A stretch of DNA of 64,000 bases. Origin: Lysobacteraceae bacterium. GTDB taxonomy: Bacteria > Pseudomonadota > Gammaproteobacteria > Xanthomonadales > Rhodanobacteraceae. How positions within the stretch are numbered: the stretch's first letter is position 1; each line of letters starts with the position of its first letter. Below the pieces are notes generated by a model. That model was given only the letters and a program-made list of their open reading frames with translations, ran no database searches and was not told the origin of the DNA. Below, one piece after another: positions 1,538 to 63,110 of the stretch. Position numbers and translations under genes: made by a program. The DNA is taken from contig JAGWPB010000006.1 in NCBI GenBank assembly GCA_028870665.1, forward strand, positions 1-64,000, in the 5' to 3' direction.

Positions 1538-1551
1538 TTGATCCCGATCAA
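1538..1551. promoter_or_regulatory. Perfect FNR/Anr box upstream of the DsrE-like gene
   Basis: TTGATCCCGATCAA matches the FNR-family consensus TTGAT-N4-ATCAA at all ten defined positions. Its centre is about 122 bp before the ATG of the DsrE-like gene. If the promoter is of the usual class II type (box centred near -41.5), transcription would start near 1586. dinB lies on the other side, and its start is 78 bp away. Function is inferred from the consensus. Confidence 0.75.
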
Positions 1552-1665
1552 GGGATCGCCATCGAGTCGGGGAAATCGGCCTTTGCCATCCGTTTTCCGC
1601 GCGTCCCGGGCGCAGACTGGCGACCTGCGCATGCGCGGTTTCCCTGCAGCTGAAGGAGAGGTGTC

Positions 1666-2040
1666 ATGTCCGTACCCGCAGCCGATCTCGTCATCATCAT
1701 GCTCACCGGCCCCGAAAATCCCAAGCGCCTGCCTTCGGCCTTTTTCCTCGCCGCCACGGCGGCGGCGGCGGAGCAGACGGTGGTGATGTATTTCACCGGC
1801 CCGGCGATGGAATTGCTGGCCAAGGGCAAGGCCGAGTCGATCGTGCCGATCGCGGGCGGCAAGAGTATCGCCGGCTTCATGAAACTGGCCGAGGACAACG
1901 GCGTCCAGTTCATCGGCTGCCTGCAGTCGATGGAGCTCAGCGGCATGCAGGCGGCCGATCTGGCCAAGCCGGTCCCGCTGCTGACGCCCAGTGCCGCGCT
2001 GCCGGCGCTGGGTGCCGCCCGGCGCCTGATGACCTGGTGA
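1666..2040 (+). CDS. DsrE/DsrF-like sulfurtransferase-type protein (DsrE3-like)
   Basis: A 124-residue soluble protein of the DsrE superfamily, whose members carry sulfane sulfur on a conserved cysteine. The only cysteine is C85, in the context GCLQSMEL, which resembles the Cys-x-x-(S/T)-Met-(D/E) signature I recall for the DsrE3 subgroup of sulfur oxidisers. The N-terminal DLVIIMLTGPENPKR strand-loop and the alanine-rich helix fit the fold. A good GGAGAGG ribosome site precedes the ATG. The next gene, 130 bp downstream, is an LbpA-like lipoyl carrier. In sHdr-type sulfur oxidation, DsrE3, TusA and LbpA act together, so a role in sulfur relay is the best inference. A generic 'peroxiredoxin-like DsrE family' label is the fallback. 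Confidence 0.75.
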   Translation: MSVPAADLVIIMLTGPENPKRLPSAFFLAATAAAAEQTVVMYFTGPAMELLAKGKAESIVPIAGGKSIAGFMKLAEDNGVQFIGCLQSMELSGMQAADLAKPVPLLTPSAALPALGAARRLMTW

Positions 2041-2170
2041 GGCCGGGTGCGTCTCCGCGATCCCGCCCAGCCCGCCCGTGCGGGTGCGGGGGTGCGCCGG
2101 GGCGCTGGCACGAAGCACGCGGCAGGCCGCGGTAAGCTAGCCTGAACCCGACGACTGAGGAGAATGCATC

Positions 2171-2611
2171 ATGGCGACGGCCCGCGGTTGCGTGTTCCCC
2201 GACGAGCTCCTGTACGACGTCCCCAACAACATGTGGTACCGGGAAGAGCCGGACGGCAGCGTCGTGACCGGCCTGACCATGGTCGCCGTGGCACTGGCCG
2301 GGCAGCTGGTGGCGGTGACGCCGAAGAAGGCGGGCAAGCCGCTGCAGGCGGGCAAGTCCTGCGCCACGATCGAGTCGGGCAAGTGGGTCGGTCCGGCCAA
2401 GATCGCCTTCGATGCCGAGGTGACCGCGGTCAACGATGCGCTGATGGCCGATCCCAAGATCGCCAACGCCGACCCCTACCAGGGCGGCTGGCTGATGCGG
2501 GTCAAGCCGGCCGCCTGGGAGGAAGCGAAGAAGTCGCTGGTGCCGGGCGGTCAGGTGGCGGCGCCGTACGAGGCGAAGATGGCCGCCGACGGCTTTGCCG
2601 GCTGCGCCTGA
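2171..2611 (+). CDS. lbpA: GcvH-like lipoate-binding protein, probably LbpA of sHdr sulfur oxidation
   Basis: A 146-residue lipoyl-domain protein of the glycine-cleavage-H family. The lipoyl lysine is expected at K71 in ESGKWVGP. Canonical GcvH proteins have ESVKAASD here. The WVGP version, the ADPYQGGW segment and a C-terminal GFAGC tail are features I associate with LbpA carriers of the heterodisulfide-reductase-like (sHdr) sulfur oxidation system. No gcvT or gcvP is nearby, and the upstream neighbour is DsrE-like. In that pathway the lipoyl arm serves as a carrier for sulfur-compound oxidation in the cytoplasm. The sHdr subunits themselves are not in this window, so the assignment rests on motif plus neighbour. 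An ordinary GcvH paralogue is the alternative. Confidence 0.8.
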   Translation: MATARGCVFPDELLYDVPNNMWYREEPDGSVVTGLTMVAVALAGQLVAVTPKKAGKPLQAGKSCATIESGKWVGPAKIAFDAEVTAVNDALMADPKIANADPYQGGWLMRVKPAAWEEAKKSLVPGGQVAAPYEAKMAADGFAGCA

Positions 2612-9401: not shown

Positions 9402-10414
9402 TCGCACTCGCGCTGGTGGCCGCCTGCACGCTGCCGCTGGCCGTCGGCGGGCGTGCAGCGCTGGTGCAGGTTTTGCGCTTCGCCCCGATCGACGCGGCCG
9501 CGCTGTTCGCACTGGCCGCCATCGCGGCATTGGCGCGCGCGCTGAAACAGTGCCTGCTGCTGCACCGCCTGGGGCTGCGTCTCGGGATCGCGCCCAGCCT
9601 GGCGGTATCGCTGGCGACGGAGGCGGCCTTTGCGTTGACGCCGGCCGGTGCCGGCGGCTATCCGGCCAGCGTCTGGCTGCTGCGACGCACCGGCGCGCGC
9701 CTGCCGACGGCGATCGCGACGACCGCCGCCGACCCGCTGCTCGACGGCGTGTTCTTCGCCATCGCCCTGCCGCTGGCGGCACTGTCTGCCGTCGACAGCA
9801 GCGCGCCGACGGTGCTGCGCGAACTGGCACTGGCGACCGCGATCGCCCTGGCCATGGTTGCGGCACTGGCCACGCTGGCGTGGCGTCCGCTGCGGCGACT
9901 GGCGTTGCGCCTGCTGCCGCGACTGTGGCGCCTGTCGCCGCTGGCGCGGCGGCGCCGCGCGCTGACAGCGACAACGGTCAGGTTGCGCCGCGCGCTGCGC
10001 CGGCTGCGGCGCGGCGGCTTGCTGTTTCTGCTGCTCGCGCTGGCACTGACCACGGCGCAATGGTGCGCGCGCTACGCCATCCTGTGGCTGATCCTCGATC
10101 GCCTCGGCGCACCGTTGCCGTTCGCGCTGGTGCTGCTGCTGCAGGCGCTGGTGCTGCACGCCGCACAGTGGACCGGAAGCCCTGCCGGCGCCGGCGGCGC
10201 CGATCTCGGGCTGGGGCTGGCGCTGGCGCCGCTGCTGCCGGCGCCAAAGCTGGCCGCCGCGCTGCTGCTGTGGCGGCTGGGTACGCTGGTGCTGCCGGTC
10301 GCCGCGGGCGCGCTGGCGCTGCTGGCACTGGGCCTGCACCGCGCTGCGCCGACCGCCGCCGCGACGCGCGACGTCGGCAGCCGCGAGATCCTTCGGTCTT
10401 CGACCTCGGGATGA
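9377..10414 (+). CDS. YbhN/UPF0104-family integral membrane protein (flippase-like)
   Basis: A 345-residue polytopic membrane protein with about eight hydrophobic segments, of the lysylphosphatidylglycerol-synthase transmembrane/UPF0104 fold. The ALTPAGAGGYPASVW and GSPAGAGGADLGLG stretches match the conserved Pro/Gly-rich family loops. Such proteins often sit beside glycosyltransferases and are thought to move lipid-linked sugars or polyprenyl lipids. It is the third gene of the overlapping unit. Its last dozen residues (SREILRSSTSG) are encoded by the left arm of a REP-like inverted repeat, so the native C-terminus has probably been replaced by the repeat. Confidence 0.82.
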   Translation: MRRRTGPLIALALVAACTLPLAVGGRAALVQVLRFAPIDAAALFALAAIAALARALKQCLLLHRLGLRLGIAPSLAVSLATEAAFALTPAGAGGYPASVWLLRRTGARLPTAIATTAADPLLDGVFFAIALPLAALSAVDSSAPTVLRELALATAIALAMVAALATLAWRPLRRLALRLLPRLWRLSPLARRRRALTATTVRLRRALRRLRRGGLLFLLLALALTTAQWCARYAILWLILDRLGAPLPFALVLLLQALVLHAAQWTGSPAGAGGADLGLGLALAPLLPAPKLAAALLLWRLGTLVLPVAAGALALLALGLHRAAPTAAATRDVGSREILRSSTSG

Positions 10415-10449
10415 CACCTTCGGTGTCACCCTGAGCGCAGCGAAGGGTC
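10387..10449. repeat. REP-like inverted repeat overlapping the 3' end of the flippase-like gene
   Basis: Outer arms GATCCTTCG (10387-10395) and CGAAGGGTC (10441-10449) pair with one mismatch. Inner arms CTCGGGATGACACC and GGTGTCACCCTGAG pair around a three-base loop at 10419-10421. The whole forms a long imperfect hairpin. It contains the stop codon of the upstream gene, and its sub-blocks recur near 7266 and 7343. It may also end transcription. Confidence 0.7.
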
Positions 10450-10511
10450 CGTGATGCAGGCAACGAAGTCGCCGCACGCGAGCAAACCGCTGACCGGTCA
10501 CGATCGCCGCG

Positions 10512-10540
10512 AAAAAAAGGCCGCGACTTGCGCCGCGGCC
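10512..10540 (-). terminator. Rho-independent terminator of the Cyc2-like gene
   Basis: On the minus strand a GGCCGCG stem closes with CGCGGCC across an eight-base loop and is followed by seven T residues. It lies 30 bp past the stop of the Cyc2-like gene, so that gene forms a single-gene transcript. Confidence 0.85.
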
Positions 10541-10569
10541 CGGGTACCACACCGAAACTCACGCGTTGC

Positions 10570-11940
10570 TCAGAACGCCGTCCACAGATACAGGTAGGTC
10601 GTGTTGTTGTCGCTGGCGTTGCGGCCGGTGCCGTCGTAGTTGTTCTTGGCGCCGTCGTACTTGGTGTAGAAGGTGTATTGCAGGCCGACGCGCAGGTTGA
10701 TCCACGGCTGGTCGAACGAGGTCGCCTTGCCGAATGGATTCCAGTTCAGCTCGACGATGCCGCCGTTGGTATCGGGCGAACCGTTGACGCTGCCGTAGAG
10801 CAGGGCATCCGCGGTTCCGGTGTTGCGGAACATGCCCAGCGTGGCGCCCCAGGTGTTTTCGTACCAGTAGGCGCCATTGAGGTTGAGCGCGTTGACACTG
10901 TTGCCGAGGTTGGAGGAGCCGCCGCTGGCGTAGGTCGCATACAGCCGCTGCTGCTCGTGGATGTACGAGGCATTGGCGGTGAAGATGTGCTTGCCGGTTC
11001 CGAGGAACTGGTAGCTGCCGTCCACGCCGAAATCGCGGAAGTTGTCGGTCGGGCCGGGCATCGCGAACGGATTGCCGTTGACGTCGGTGCCGGGCAGTCC
11101 GCGATGGACATTGAAGAATGTCGTGCCGATCTCGAAGTCACCGCCCCTCACCGTCGAGGTGTAGGCCAGGCGGGCATACGGCGCAAGGCCGCTGATGCGT
11201 CCGCCGTAACCGATGTTGATGTCGTTGAGGAAGCCCGGCGACAGCGTGCGATAACCGCCGCCCTCGACATACCAGTGGTTGTCGATCAGCGAATAGGCGG
11301 TGACACCGATCACCTGCTGGCCGAAGCCGCCGTACAGCACCGGCGTGGCCGGCGGGCCGTAGGCGAGATTCGAGCTCATGTACGGGTACTGCCAGGCCGG
11401 CGCGGTGTTGAACACGTCCGACACGGTCGGATTGTTGTTGGCTGAAATGCCCCACATCAGCGTGTGCCCGTTCCACATCGTGGTCCGCGCGTAGCGCACG
11501 TCGGTGTTGTCCCAGCCGAGCAGGCCGCCATTCTCCGAATAGGTGGCCTGGCCCAGTACGCCCAGGTGATCACTGAGGCGACCGGCGAGGAAGATCGACG
11601 CCTGCTGCATCTCGAGGTTGTTGTTGTTGTGGAAGCCGTTGGCGGGCGGCGAGGGCTGGCTGGTGGCGGTGTGGGTGTAGGACTCCACCAGCATCACCGA
11701 CAACGGCAGGTTCGACTGGTTGCCCGCCTTCATGGTGTAGCCGCCGAGCTTGAACAGGCGGCCGAAAGGGGTGAGCTGCGGGCCGAAGCCGCCGATGTGG
11801 CAGGCCGCGCAAGGCTGATGAGTCTGGCGCGCGAACGCCGGGACCGCGGATGCCGTCGGCATGTAGCCCGCCGCCGCCAGGAATGCGATCGCCAGCGCCG
11901 CTCGCAGCGCCGGGGATCGGGACAACCATCGCGTGAACAT
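10570..11940 (-). CDS. Cyc2-like outer-membrane monoheme cytochrome fused to a porin barrel
   Basis: A 456-residue protein with a signal peptide (about residues 1-32) and one c-type heme motif, C44-A-A-C47-H48. The region AVPAFARQTHQPCAACH followed by PQLTPFGRLFKLGGY matches the AxPxFARQTxxxCxxCH and FGRxFKLxGY pattern described for Cyc2 Fe(II) oxidases. The remaining 390 residues alternate aromatic and polar strands (WYVEGGGYR, PYARLAYTS, INLRVGLQYTFYT) and end in an aromatic (LYLWTAF), as expected of an outer-membrane barrel. Cyc2 proteins pass electrons from extracellular iron into the periplasm. Related proteins of unproven function share the motif, so iron oxidation is likely but not certain. 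An AGGAGGTG ribosome site decides the start. The gene has its own terminator and an FNR box upstream. Confidence 0.82.
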   Translation of the reverse strand: MFTRWLSRSPALRAALAIAFLAAAGYMPTASAVPAFARQTHQPCAACHIGGFGPQLTPFGRLFKLGGYTMKAGNQSNLPLSVMLVESYTHTATSQPSPPANGFHNNNNLEMQQASIFLAGRLSDHLGVLGQATYSENGGLLGWDNTDVRYARTTMWNGHTLMWGISANNNPTVSDVFNTAPAWQYPYMSSNLAYGPPATPVLYGGFGQQVIGVTAYSLIDNHWYVEGGGYRTLSPGFLNDINIGYGGRISGLAPYARLAYTSTVRGGDFEIGTTFFNVHRGLPGTDVNGNPFAMPGPTDNFRDFGVDGSYQFLGTGKHIFTANASYIHEQQRLYATYASGGSSNLGNSVNALNLNGAYWYENTWGATLGMFRNTGTADALLYGSVNGSPDTNGGIVELNWNPFGKATSFDQPWINLRVGLQYTFYTKYDGAKNNYDGTGRNASDNNTTYLYLWTAF

Positions 11941-12028
11941 GAGACACCTCCTGTTTTTCTGAAACCTGCTTGACCTGTGGCCACGATGCCTGCTGCTTGC
12001 AGAACGGGCCAACGAAACTTTCACGGTT

Positions 12029-12045
12029 AACGATACGTTATCGTT
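12029..12045. promoter_or_regulatory. 17-bp inverted repeat in the Cyc2-like promoter
   Basis: AACGATA-CGT-TATCGTT is a perfect 7-bp inverted repeat. It sits between the FNR box and the start codon, and its minus-strand TATCGT would fall near the expected -10 position of a class II FNR promoter. It may be an operator for a second regulator. No family is assigned. Confidence 0.5.
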
Positions 12046-12056
12046 CCGGGCGCCCC

Positions 12057-12070
12057 TTGATTCCGATCAA
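12057..12070. promoter_or_regulatory. Perfect FNR/Anr box upstream of the Cyc2-like gene
   Basis: TTGATTCCGATCAA fits TTGAT-N4-ATCAA at all ten defined positions. The centre is about 124 bp before the ATG at 11940, practically the same distance as the box before the DsrE-like gene. glnA lies on the far side and points toward this region, so the site can serve only the Cyc2-like gene. Confidence 0.75.
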
Positions 12071-12171
12071 GCCGGCGACCCGCGCCTGCTTACGATTCGT
12101 AGGAATGCGCGCGGCGCGCTGTCGCAGGCCGGGACTGATCCTCGCGCAGCCGAATCGACCCCGACAACGAC

Positions 12172-60835: not shown

Positions 60836-60849
60836 TTGATCCAGATCAA
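60836..60849. promoter_or_regulatory. Perfect FNR/Anr box upstream of the hydrogenase operon
   Basis: TTGATCCAGATCAA matches TTGAT-N4-ATCAA at all ten positions. Its centre is about 212 bp before the ATG of the protease gene and 90 bp before a small upstream frame. A class II promoter would start near 60884. This suggests oxygen-limited expression of the hydrogenase. Confidence 0.75.
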
Positions 60850-62021: not shown

Positions 62022-63110
62022 ATGAACACGCAACGCGATCCGACGGTCCTCGAATCCTTCCAGCAGCAGGGCCTGAGCCGGCGCGCATTCCTGAAGTTCT
62101 GCGCCGCCACGGCATCGCTGCTGGCCTTGCCCGCGGCGCGCGCGGCGGAGTTGGCAGAGAAGCTTGCCGGGATGACGCGGCCGACCGTGATCTACCTGTC
62201 GTTCCAGGAATGCACGGGTTGTCTCGAGTCGCTGACGCGGTCCTTCCAGCCGACGCTGGAAAGCCTGATCTTCAACACGATTTCCCTGGCCTACAACGAC
62301 ACCCTGCAAGCGGCGGCCGGCGAGGCGGCCGAGGCGGCGCGCGAGGATGCGATGCGCAAGGCCTGGGGCAAGTACGTGCTGATCGTCGACGGCGCCATCC
62401 CGCGCCCGGAGGACGGTGCCTATTGCGTGATCGGCGGCAGGAGCGCGCTCGATCTGCTGCGGCACGCCGCCGAAGGTGCCGCCGCCGTGGTCGCGGTCGG
62501 CACCTGCGCTGCGTTCGGCGGCATTCCCTACGCCGCACCCAATCCAACCGGGGCCGCCTCGGTGCAGGACCTGGTCGGCGATCGACCGGTGATCAACATC
62601 TCTGGCTGTCCGCCGATTCCCGAGGTCATCACCGGCACCATCGTCTATTTTCTCGGCTTCGGCGTCCCCGAACTCGACGCGCAGCGGCGCCCGACGATGT
62701 TCTATGGCACCACCATTCACGATCGCTGCTACCGCCGGCCGTTCTACGACAAGGGATTGTTCGCCCGCAGCTTCGACGACGAAGGCGCGCGCAATGGCTG
62801 GTGTCTGTACGAGCTCGGCTGCAAGGGCCCGGTGACCTACAACTCGTGCGCCACCATGAAGTGGAATGACGGCACCAGCTTTCCGATCCAGTCGGGGCAC
62901 GGCTGCCTGGGCTGCTCCGAGCCCAATTTCTGGGATGGCGGCGGGTTCTACCGGCCGCTCTCCAGCGGGCTTTGGCACGGCGGCATCGGCGAGGGACTCG
63001 GTGTCGCCGCCGTGGCCGGAGTGGCCATCGGCGGCGCGGCGGCCGTCGCGGCGCGCCAGCGGCAGAAACGCATCACCGAAGCCGGCAAGAAACCCCCGGA
63101 GGCGCCGTGA
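62022..63110 (+). CDS. hynS: [NiFe]-hydrogenase small subunit, Isp-type (group 1e-like)
   Basis: A 362-residue Fe-S subunit that carries electrons from the nickel-iron site. Residues 18-26 hold the twin-arginine motif LSRRAFLKF, so the folded dimer is exported by Tat. The proximal cluster uses C64 and C67 (QECTGCLES), GTCAAFGG and GCPPIP. The distal and medial sites lie in HDRCYRR, NGWCLYELGCKGP, NSC and GCLGCSEP. Neither supernumerary proximal cysteine of oxygen-tolerant enzymes is present (Gly at the C-T-C-C position). A C-terminal membrane anchor (about 315-340) follows. One-base overlap with isp1. Confidence 0.95.
   Translation: MNTQRDPTVLESFQQQGLSRRAFLKFCAATASLLALPAARAAELAEKLAGMTRPTVIYLSFQECTGCLESLTRSFQPTLESLIFNTISLAYNDTLQAAAGEAAEAAREDAMRKAWGKYVLIVDGAIPRPEDGAYCVIGGRSALDLLRHAAEGAAAVVAVGTCAAFGGIPYAAPNPTGAASVQDLVGDRPVINISGCPPIPEVITGTIVYFLGFGVPELDAQRRPTMFYGTTIHDRCYRRPFYDKGLFARSFDDEGARNGWCLYELGCKGPVTYNSCATMKWNDGTSFPIQSGHGCLGCSEPNFWDGGGFYRPLSSGLWHGGIGEGLGVAAVAGVAIGGAAAVAARQRQKRITEAGKKPPEAP

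Follow-up and report, generated by a model that had tools for sequence, protein, structure and literature searches.

We describe a gene pair in the 64-kb stretch of DNA analysed here as a whole (the window), which encodes a DsrE-like protein (DsrEw) and a lipoate-binding protein of the LbpA2 type. The pair is probably a satellite of the sHdr system: its LbpA2 would be a carrier for the sHdr complex encoded on another contig of the same genome (C38), its promoter would be governed by an FNR-type oxygen switch, and DsrEw would act as an accessory sulfur carrier. The parts are of known kinds. New are the DsrEw clade, the satellite position in combination with an FNR-type site, and a genome with two copies of LbpA2 type. 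Among the papers listed in a literature search covering titles and the beginnings of abstracts, none describes an lbpA that lies apart from shdr under FNR control; likewise, no published name for the DsrEw clade was found. The features of the pair are as follows.

1538-1551, no strand: FNR-type palindrome TTGATCCCGATCAA, an exact match to TTGATN4ATCAA
1666-2040, + strand: gene for the DsrE-like protein DsrEw, 124 residues (open reading frame; Pfam DsrE and DrsE_2)
2171-2611, + strand: lbpA2-type gene, 146 residues (open reading frame; Pfam GCV_H; tree, alignment and structure model)

Both open reading frames (ORFs) and the palindrome lie where the preliminary description of this DNA had placed them, and the Pfam matches to DrsE_2, DsrE and GCV_H all exceed the gathering scores. 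A tblastn search of the window with 13 proteins of the pair and the sHdr cluster (E up to 1e-5) matched the pair alone, thus none of the tested hdr genes is in the window and the absence of an adjacent hdr-like gene, noted before, is borne out. Location in or beside an hdr-like cluster, a matter of association and not of sequence, does not apply to this lbpA, the cluster being on contig C38. In the window and in one relative (G009) the satellite lbpA lies between DNA polymerase IV-like and gamma-glutamyltransferase-like ORFs; in four others (G002, G003, G008, G011) an MBL-exonuclease-like ORF precedes it, and two of these (G002, G003) have an opposite-strand membrane-protein-like ORF after it (all named by eye).

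The DsrEw gene and lbpA are presumably co-transcribed. Their intergenic gap of 130 bp leaves room in the window for a separate lbpA promoter. In G002, G003, G008 and G011 a conserved block around CTTGTTTAG is found before lbpA (by eye), which could be such a promoter; this block is missing from the window.

The lipoyl carrier and its sHdr cluster

Judged by its sequence, the 146-residue protein is of LbpA2 type and not GcvH, in agreement with the preliminary description, which had drawn on the lipoyl motif ESGKWVGP and the tail GFAGC. Both are present and contain K71 and C145, respectively. Cysteines are found at positions 7, 64 and 145, and K71, C7 and C145 are invariant in an alignment of 22 rows. 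In the consulted part of Cao et al. 2018 (PMC6067878), LbpA proteins are marked by a strictly conserved lipoyl lysine and by N- and C-terminal cysteines which are absent from GcvH. The window protein has the lipoyl lysine and both terminal cysteines and groups with LbpA2; the GcvH rows of the genus have one cysteine, at about residue 58. In a tree of 65 rows, where rows were labelled LbpA1 or LbpA2 from the two adjacent types in the Acidithiobacillus and Thioalkalivibrio clusters and from the end residues, the protein groups with the copies of the genus and with 17 LbpA2 proteins of sulfur oxidisers, among them Acidithiobacillus and Thioalkalivibrio (97/92). GcvH is split from this group at 100/100, and LbpA1 and a third LbpA-like clade (LbpAx) are also apart. 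The AlphaFold model of LbpA2 is confident (pLDDT 96.3), and the satellite LbpA2 is presumably lipoylated.

An identity as GcvH of the glycine cleavage system might be suspected from Pfam, which names the protein GCV_H, and from the PDB, where all 13 matches are GcvH. Against it stand the tree split, the two LbpA cysteines and scores below both NCBIfam GcvH cut-offs (93.9 against 117 and 60.4 against 115.85 bits), which rule it out. Moreover, the genome has a separate GcvH-like gene: the relatives of the 146-residue protein in its own genome are two, a copy of 84% identity on C38 and one of 35% identity, the GcvH, on C63. We leave virtually no probability to the GcvH identity.

The LbpAx clade forms a branch of its own in the same tree (97/97). 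Its ORFs encode 148-158 residues with an N-terminal GC and a C-terminal VQCMRC (e.g. L138:8083-8529, L097:7273-7719, L098:7500-7976) and are located away from LbpA1-LbpA2 pairs, in Acidithiobacillus and other genomes as well as in G008 and G011.

The genome of the window (G000; 2.6 Mb, 112 contigs, 92% complete) carries a full sHdr set on contig C38, in the order dsrE, shdrC1, shdrB1, shdrA, a hypothetical ORF, shdrC2, shdrB2, a further hypothetical ORF, lbpA2, dsrE2, tusA and a lipoate-ligase-like gene. The hdr subunits were named from gene order and from identity to the clusters of one Acidithiobacillus and one Thioalkalivibrio genome, whose genes are themselves named after general usage and the papers cited. 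The DsrE2 scores above its NCBIfam cut-off. The ligase stays below the cut-offs of the NCBIfam lipoate-protein ligase models and exceeds the gathering score of the Pfam LplA/B catalytic domain. The view of the pair as a detached piece of an sHdr-type system is partly supported, and the proposed genome search for shdr, tusA and a ligase led in every case to C38. Since the protein is placed with LbpA2 and a full sHdr set with a ligase is present in the genome, neither of the two outcomes named as fatal to that view, clustering with canonical GcvH or a genome devoid of sHdr subunits and a ligase partner, was observed.

Service of the satellite in sHdr is well supported by comparison with relatives. 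LbpA2 at 70% identity or more is present in 9 of the 13 genomes of the genus. Four have it in the cluster (G000, G005, G006, G001) and six as a satellite (G000, G009, G002, G003, G008, G011), both together being seen in G000 only. Five clusters (G011, G008, G012, G002, G003) proceed from hdrB2 to dsrE2, tusA and the ligase with the lbpA slot empty, while the hypothetical ORF after hdrB2 is retained in the three where it was read (G011, G008, G012). The satellite is the only LbpA2 found in G011 and G008 (99% complete), G002 (89%) and G003 (77%). Because these four relatives combine an empty slot with a satellite as their only LbpA2, the satellite very probably serves sHdr. In G012, with its empty slot and 94% completeness, no LbpA2 was found; in G009 the sHdr contig ends within hdrC2, short of the lbpA slot. 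A binning artefact is ruled out by G011, where satellite and cluster lie about 1 Mb apart on one contig of 2.1 Mb. Of the satellite pair as first described, the detached lbpA with its FNR-type box therefore stands, being conserved in relatives, but it is not the sole LbpA of this genome. As the cluster has an LbpA2 of its own, the satellite may be redundant here.

The two lbpA copies of G000 differ by a dS of 0.57, which rules out a recent duplication; for comparison, the window copy is at a dS of 0.65 to 1.05 from the satellites of G008, G011, G002 and G003, and the closest species pairs are at 0.10 to 0.35. Purifying selection is seen between the window and G009 satellites (dN/dS 0.12), and dN/dS was 0.20 or less in those of the satellite and DsrEw pairs compared that gave a value. 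In the tree, the window satellite groups with the in-cluster copies of G000 and G005 (97/89) and not with the other satellites, while an AU test allows all satellites to form one clade (p = 0.228). Gene conversion or the return of a copy to the cluster may have produced this pattern. A detached lbpA is not unique to the genus: the lbpA2 of G250 has other sHdr genes nowhere within about 9 kb of it, and this copy is not paired with DsrEw.

At the site corresponding to the window, G009 (C11; L090:4774-8302) has its satellite lbpA flanked by LipS1-like, LipS2-like and sLpl(AB)-like genes, the LipS1-like and LipS2-like proteins both scoring below the NCBIfam cut-offs; DsrEw and palindrome are both absent from this site. 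In the genome of the window only a ligase of the in-cluster type was found, and a search of it for LipS1, run there without a positive control, gave no match.

DsrEw and its occurrence

DsrEw has a single cysteine, C85, which lies in the GCLQSME segment as the preliminary description had pointed out. Its structure model (pLDDT 91.8) has its best fold match in 3MC3 (TM 0.84/0.86; Z 17.4 over 119 residues, rmsd 2.6), and in a profile search of the PDB no other entry matched at E up to 0.1 (25% identity to 3MC3). In the portion of PMC4175335 consulted, DsrE3A is characterised by a C-X7-C motif with two conserved cysteines and by a gene adjoining that of a dihydrolipoamide dehydrogenase, and the DsrE3B gene adjoins a lipoamide-binding protein gene; an excerpt of PMC12423496 names DsrE3C as another DsrE class. 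In DsrEw the second cysteine of DsrE3A is missing, and the neighbouring genes are a DNA polymerase IV-like ORF (by eye) and lbpA. Its position, 130 bp upstream of lbpA, is that of a DsrE3B gene, but it is outside the DsrE3B clade. A tree covering DsrEw, the DsrE3B of the clusters, the in-cluster DsrE and 3MC3 separates the DsrEw clade (97/94) from the DsrE3B clade of the clusters (96/93) and from the in-cluster DsrE; the 3MC3 row is long-branched, and since long branches may meet, its exact place is uncertain. The DsrE of the Acidithiobacillus and Thioalkalivibrio clusters was called DsrE3B from its place beside lbpA, following the definition in the part of PMC4175335 at hand, and not from comparison with the prototype. 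Clade and cysteine pattern rule out DsrE3A, DsrE3B and the in-cluster DsrE as identities. Going by tree and alignment, DsrEw is a separate single-cysteine clade, neither DsrE3A nor DsrE3B, and of its earlier designation as DsrE3-like only the fold, which best fits DsrE3A, can be retained.

DsrEw was found at no fewer than 35 loci (at least), mostly of Acidithiobacillus and proteobacterial metagenome-assembled genomes (MAGs), with two of Thioalkalivibrio, one of Thiobacillus and two of the genus of the window; relatives at 67-85% identity are among the matches listed. An LbpA2 match was obtained in 18 of 20 DsrEw-bearing genomes searched, G156 and G165 being without one. An even draw of 369 genomes of the class contained 11 with DsrEw, all 11 with an LbpA2-like match at E below 1e-43, as against 30 of 369 with an LbpA2-like match at E below 1e-40. 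The co-occurrence is significant (p = 1.8e-12 for 10 genomes, the own genome excluded) under the assumption of independent genomes, which does not fully apply. Thus, DsrEw is tied to sHdr by occurrence, and by position it is tied to lbpA, among the loci seen, in this genus alone. Among the matches listed, LbpA adjoins DsrEw at none of 33 loci outside the genus (flanks of up to 10 kb, shorter at contig ends). The same holds for the DsrEw flanks of the 10 class genomes from outside the genus, where LbpA is on other contigs (nine) or at least 0.36 Mb away (G522). Several Acidithiobacillus loci have DsrEw near pstS-like genes (by eye).

Within the genus, DsrEw adjoins lbpA in all four genomes with a full-length DsrEw, at two genomic sites. 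The DsrEw proteins of the genus are monophyletic (95/89), so the pairing with lbpA probably arose once. In G008 (C29; L094/L023), a C-terminal remnant of DsrEw persists, with an exact FNR-type site on one side and an intact lbpA on the other. In G009 the satellite lbpA occupies the site of the window with neither DsrEw nor box; it may have lost DsrEw or never have had it. As these two relatives have a satellite lbpA and no intact dsrE, the DsrE is probably accessory. The suggestion of a specialised sulfur relay is not upheld, given these two genomes and the loci outside the genus, where DsrEw was not seen beside lbpA.

In the MAG DBS1-3.bin90 (L029, around 10001-12100), DsrEw lies directly upstream of a gcvT-gcvH-gcvP-like operon (by eye).

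The FNR-type palindrome and candidate regulators

The palindrome ends 114 bp before the ATG of dsrE. With up to one mismatch, the window has three FNR-type matches where 0.41 are expected, and three or more occurred in 1 of 100 shuffles. Exact sites number five in the 2.6-Mb genome, three of them on this contig. Of the others, one is near a cytochrome c gene (C22), one near a UspA-like ORF (C98, by eye), one at window position 12057 near an ORF with a CxxCH motif and no Pfam match, and one at 60836-60849, 1.2 kb upstream of the gene for a [NiFe]-hydrogenase small subunit (62022-63110).

All five satellites that keep the region have the palindrome at the aligned position, as an exact TTGAT-N4-ATCAA in G000, G011 and G008 and as TTGAC-N4-GTCAA, two mismatches from the FNR consensus, in G003 and G002. 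The bases around it are poorly conserved between the window and G011, G008, G003 and G002. In 15 stretches of the genus (234,797 bases) there are 15 sites of the form TTGA[T/C]N4[A/G]TCAA, four of which are in promoters of the pair; C38 and ten other sHdr-cluster stretches, some incomplete, have none. By Markov simulation the chance of a site is at most 0.0005 per 200 bp. The 11 further sites all fall into six stretches of the relatives (102,005 bases), corresponding to about 0.02 per 200 bp. With the site thus not so rare in these relatives, more weight lies on its aligned position. The box is not a general feature of DsrEw: no TTGAYN4RTCAA occurs in 11 class loci (up to 1.5 kb on each side), and no exact site was found up to 400 bp upstream of other DsrEw loci, some of which have matches with one or two mismatches.

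Three Crp-type helix-turn-helix (HTH) matches over the cut-off are present in the genome. Two regulators are Fnr-like, each with an N-terminal C-X2-C-X5-C (by eye); one gene is beside a HemN-like ORF (by eye), the other beside nirK- and norB-like genes, the nirK-like ORF being cut by the end of the locus (276.3 against a cut-off of 296.3). Both Fnr-like proteins, at 174.6 and 180.5 bits, fall short of the NCBIfam Fnr cut-off of 228 bits. The FNR-type box reported at the outset is confirmed as an exact match and is conserved in the relatives whose satellite keeps the region. Together with the Fnr-like regulators, and despite their scores, the conserved and exact sites make FNR control of the pair's promoter plausible.

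Proposed role and comparison with known systems

We propose that the satellite LbpA2 is lipoylated and would serve the C38-encoded sHdr complex as its lipoyl carrier, in this genome together with the LbpA2 of the cluster and in several relatives instead of it. An FNR-type oxygen sensor would switch the promoter on, so that carrier supply would rise under low oxygen, conditions in which nitrite respiration is possible and the nitrite and nitric oxide reductases would be used. DsrEw would be an accessory carrier of sulfane sulfur, bound via Cys85, and would feed the same pathway. Oxygen control of the satellite promoter is suggested by the sites and the candidate regulators. Sulfur transfer by DsrEw is the weakest step of the mechanism, as the lbpA of G008 and G009 comes with no intact DsrEw. 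A further-reaching version is decidedly doubtful, namely that the supply of lipoyl carrier and not the sHdr enzyme is under oxygen control, FNR raising LbpA2 along with a dedicated DsrE that loads lipoyl-LbpA2 with sulfane sulfur and so coupling sulfur oxidation in the cytoplasm to denitrification.

It appears somewhat unlikely to us that this genome has in the satellite lbpA a redundant second copy, and in dsrE a passenger with a separate function unconnected with LbpA. The relatives G008 and G009 and the loci outside the genus, with DsrEw not seen beside LbpA and pstS-like genes (by eye) nearby in several Acidithiobacillus, are what such a passenger would leave behind; adjacency in four of four genus genomes with full-length DsrEw at two sites, monophyly, purifying selection on both genes (dN/dS 0.20 or less) and the strong phyletic tie of DsrEw to LbpA2 are not. 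The satellite might also serve sHdr while its palindrome is non-functional or is read by another protein of the Crp/Fnr family, e.g. a nitric-oxide sensor, in which case an oxygen switch would be lacking. We hold this to be unlikely, given the exact FNR consensus in the window, G011 and G008, the N-terminal C-X2-C-X5-C of both FNR-like regulators (by eye) and the exact sites near cytochrome c and UspA-like (by eye) genes and about 1.2 kb from a [NiFe]-hydrogenase gene. It would be in keeping with the TTGAC-N4-GTCAA sites of G002 and G003, with the 11 similar sites that make the motif not rare in relatives, with three Crp-type HTH matches and an FNR-like gene beside nirK-/norB-like genes, and with the failure of either FNR-like protein to reach the NCBIfam cut-off. 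Service in a different lipoyl-dependent pathway, which detachment from the hdr genes, probable separate control and the detached lbpA2 of G250 would allow, is very improbable: the sHdr clusters of G011, G008, G002 and G003 would otherwise be without LbpA2, and the protein groups with LbpA2 and not with GcvH or the out-of-cluster LbpAx clade. We therefore retain the sHdr satellite as the preferred reading.

The cargo of LbpA and the protein that loads it are unsettled in PMC6067878 and related sHdr literature, as far as the consulted parts of these sources go. In the genus, nature provides variants with which the sulfur donor of LbpA and the link between sHdr and oxygen could be examined: an lbpA outside the cluster, the sole LbpA2 in several species, behind a likely oxygen switch and beside an sHdr-associated DsrE. 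It also marks a conserved DsrE clade, DsrEw, as an sHdr-associated protein.

Among known systems, DsrE3A (Metallosphaera Mcup_0681; Sulfolobus SSO1125 = 3MC3; excerpt of PMC4175335) is the best fold match of DsrEw, and its first motif cysteine aligns with C85. In contrast to DsrE3A, DsrEw is without the second cysteine of C-X7-C and is flanked by lbpA and a DNA polymerase IV-like gene instead of a dihydrolipoamide dehydrogenase gene. The sHdr clusters of Acidithiobacillus and Thioalkalivibrio (lbpA1-dsrE3B-lbpA2) have a dsrE directly upstream of lbpA2, as in the window; there, however, dsrE3B is inside the sHdr cluster and of a different clade. With LbpA2 of the sHdr-LbpA systems of Hyphomicrobium denitrificans and Thioalkalivibrio, as presented in the accessible sections of PMC6067878 and PMC10332631, the window protein shares the lipoyl lysine, the N- and C-terminal cysteines, the tree position and the presence of a complete sHdr cluster in its genome. 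According to the part of PMC6067878 consulted, sHdr in Hyphomicrobium cannot do without LbpA, and where an organism carries two lbpA genes, each type is represented once. Unlike these systems, the genome studied here has two genes of LbpA2 type, and the one in the window, preceded by an FNR-type box, is separate from the sHdr cluster.
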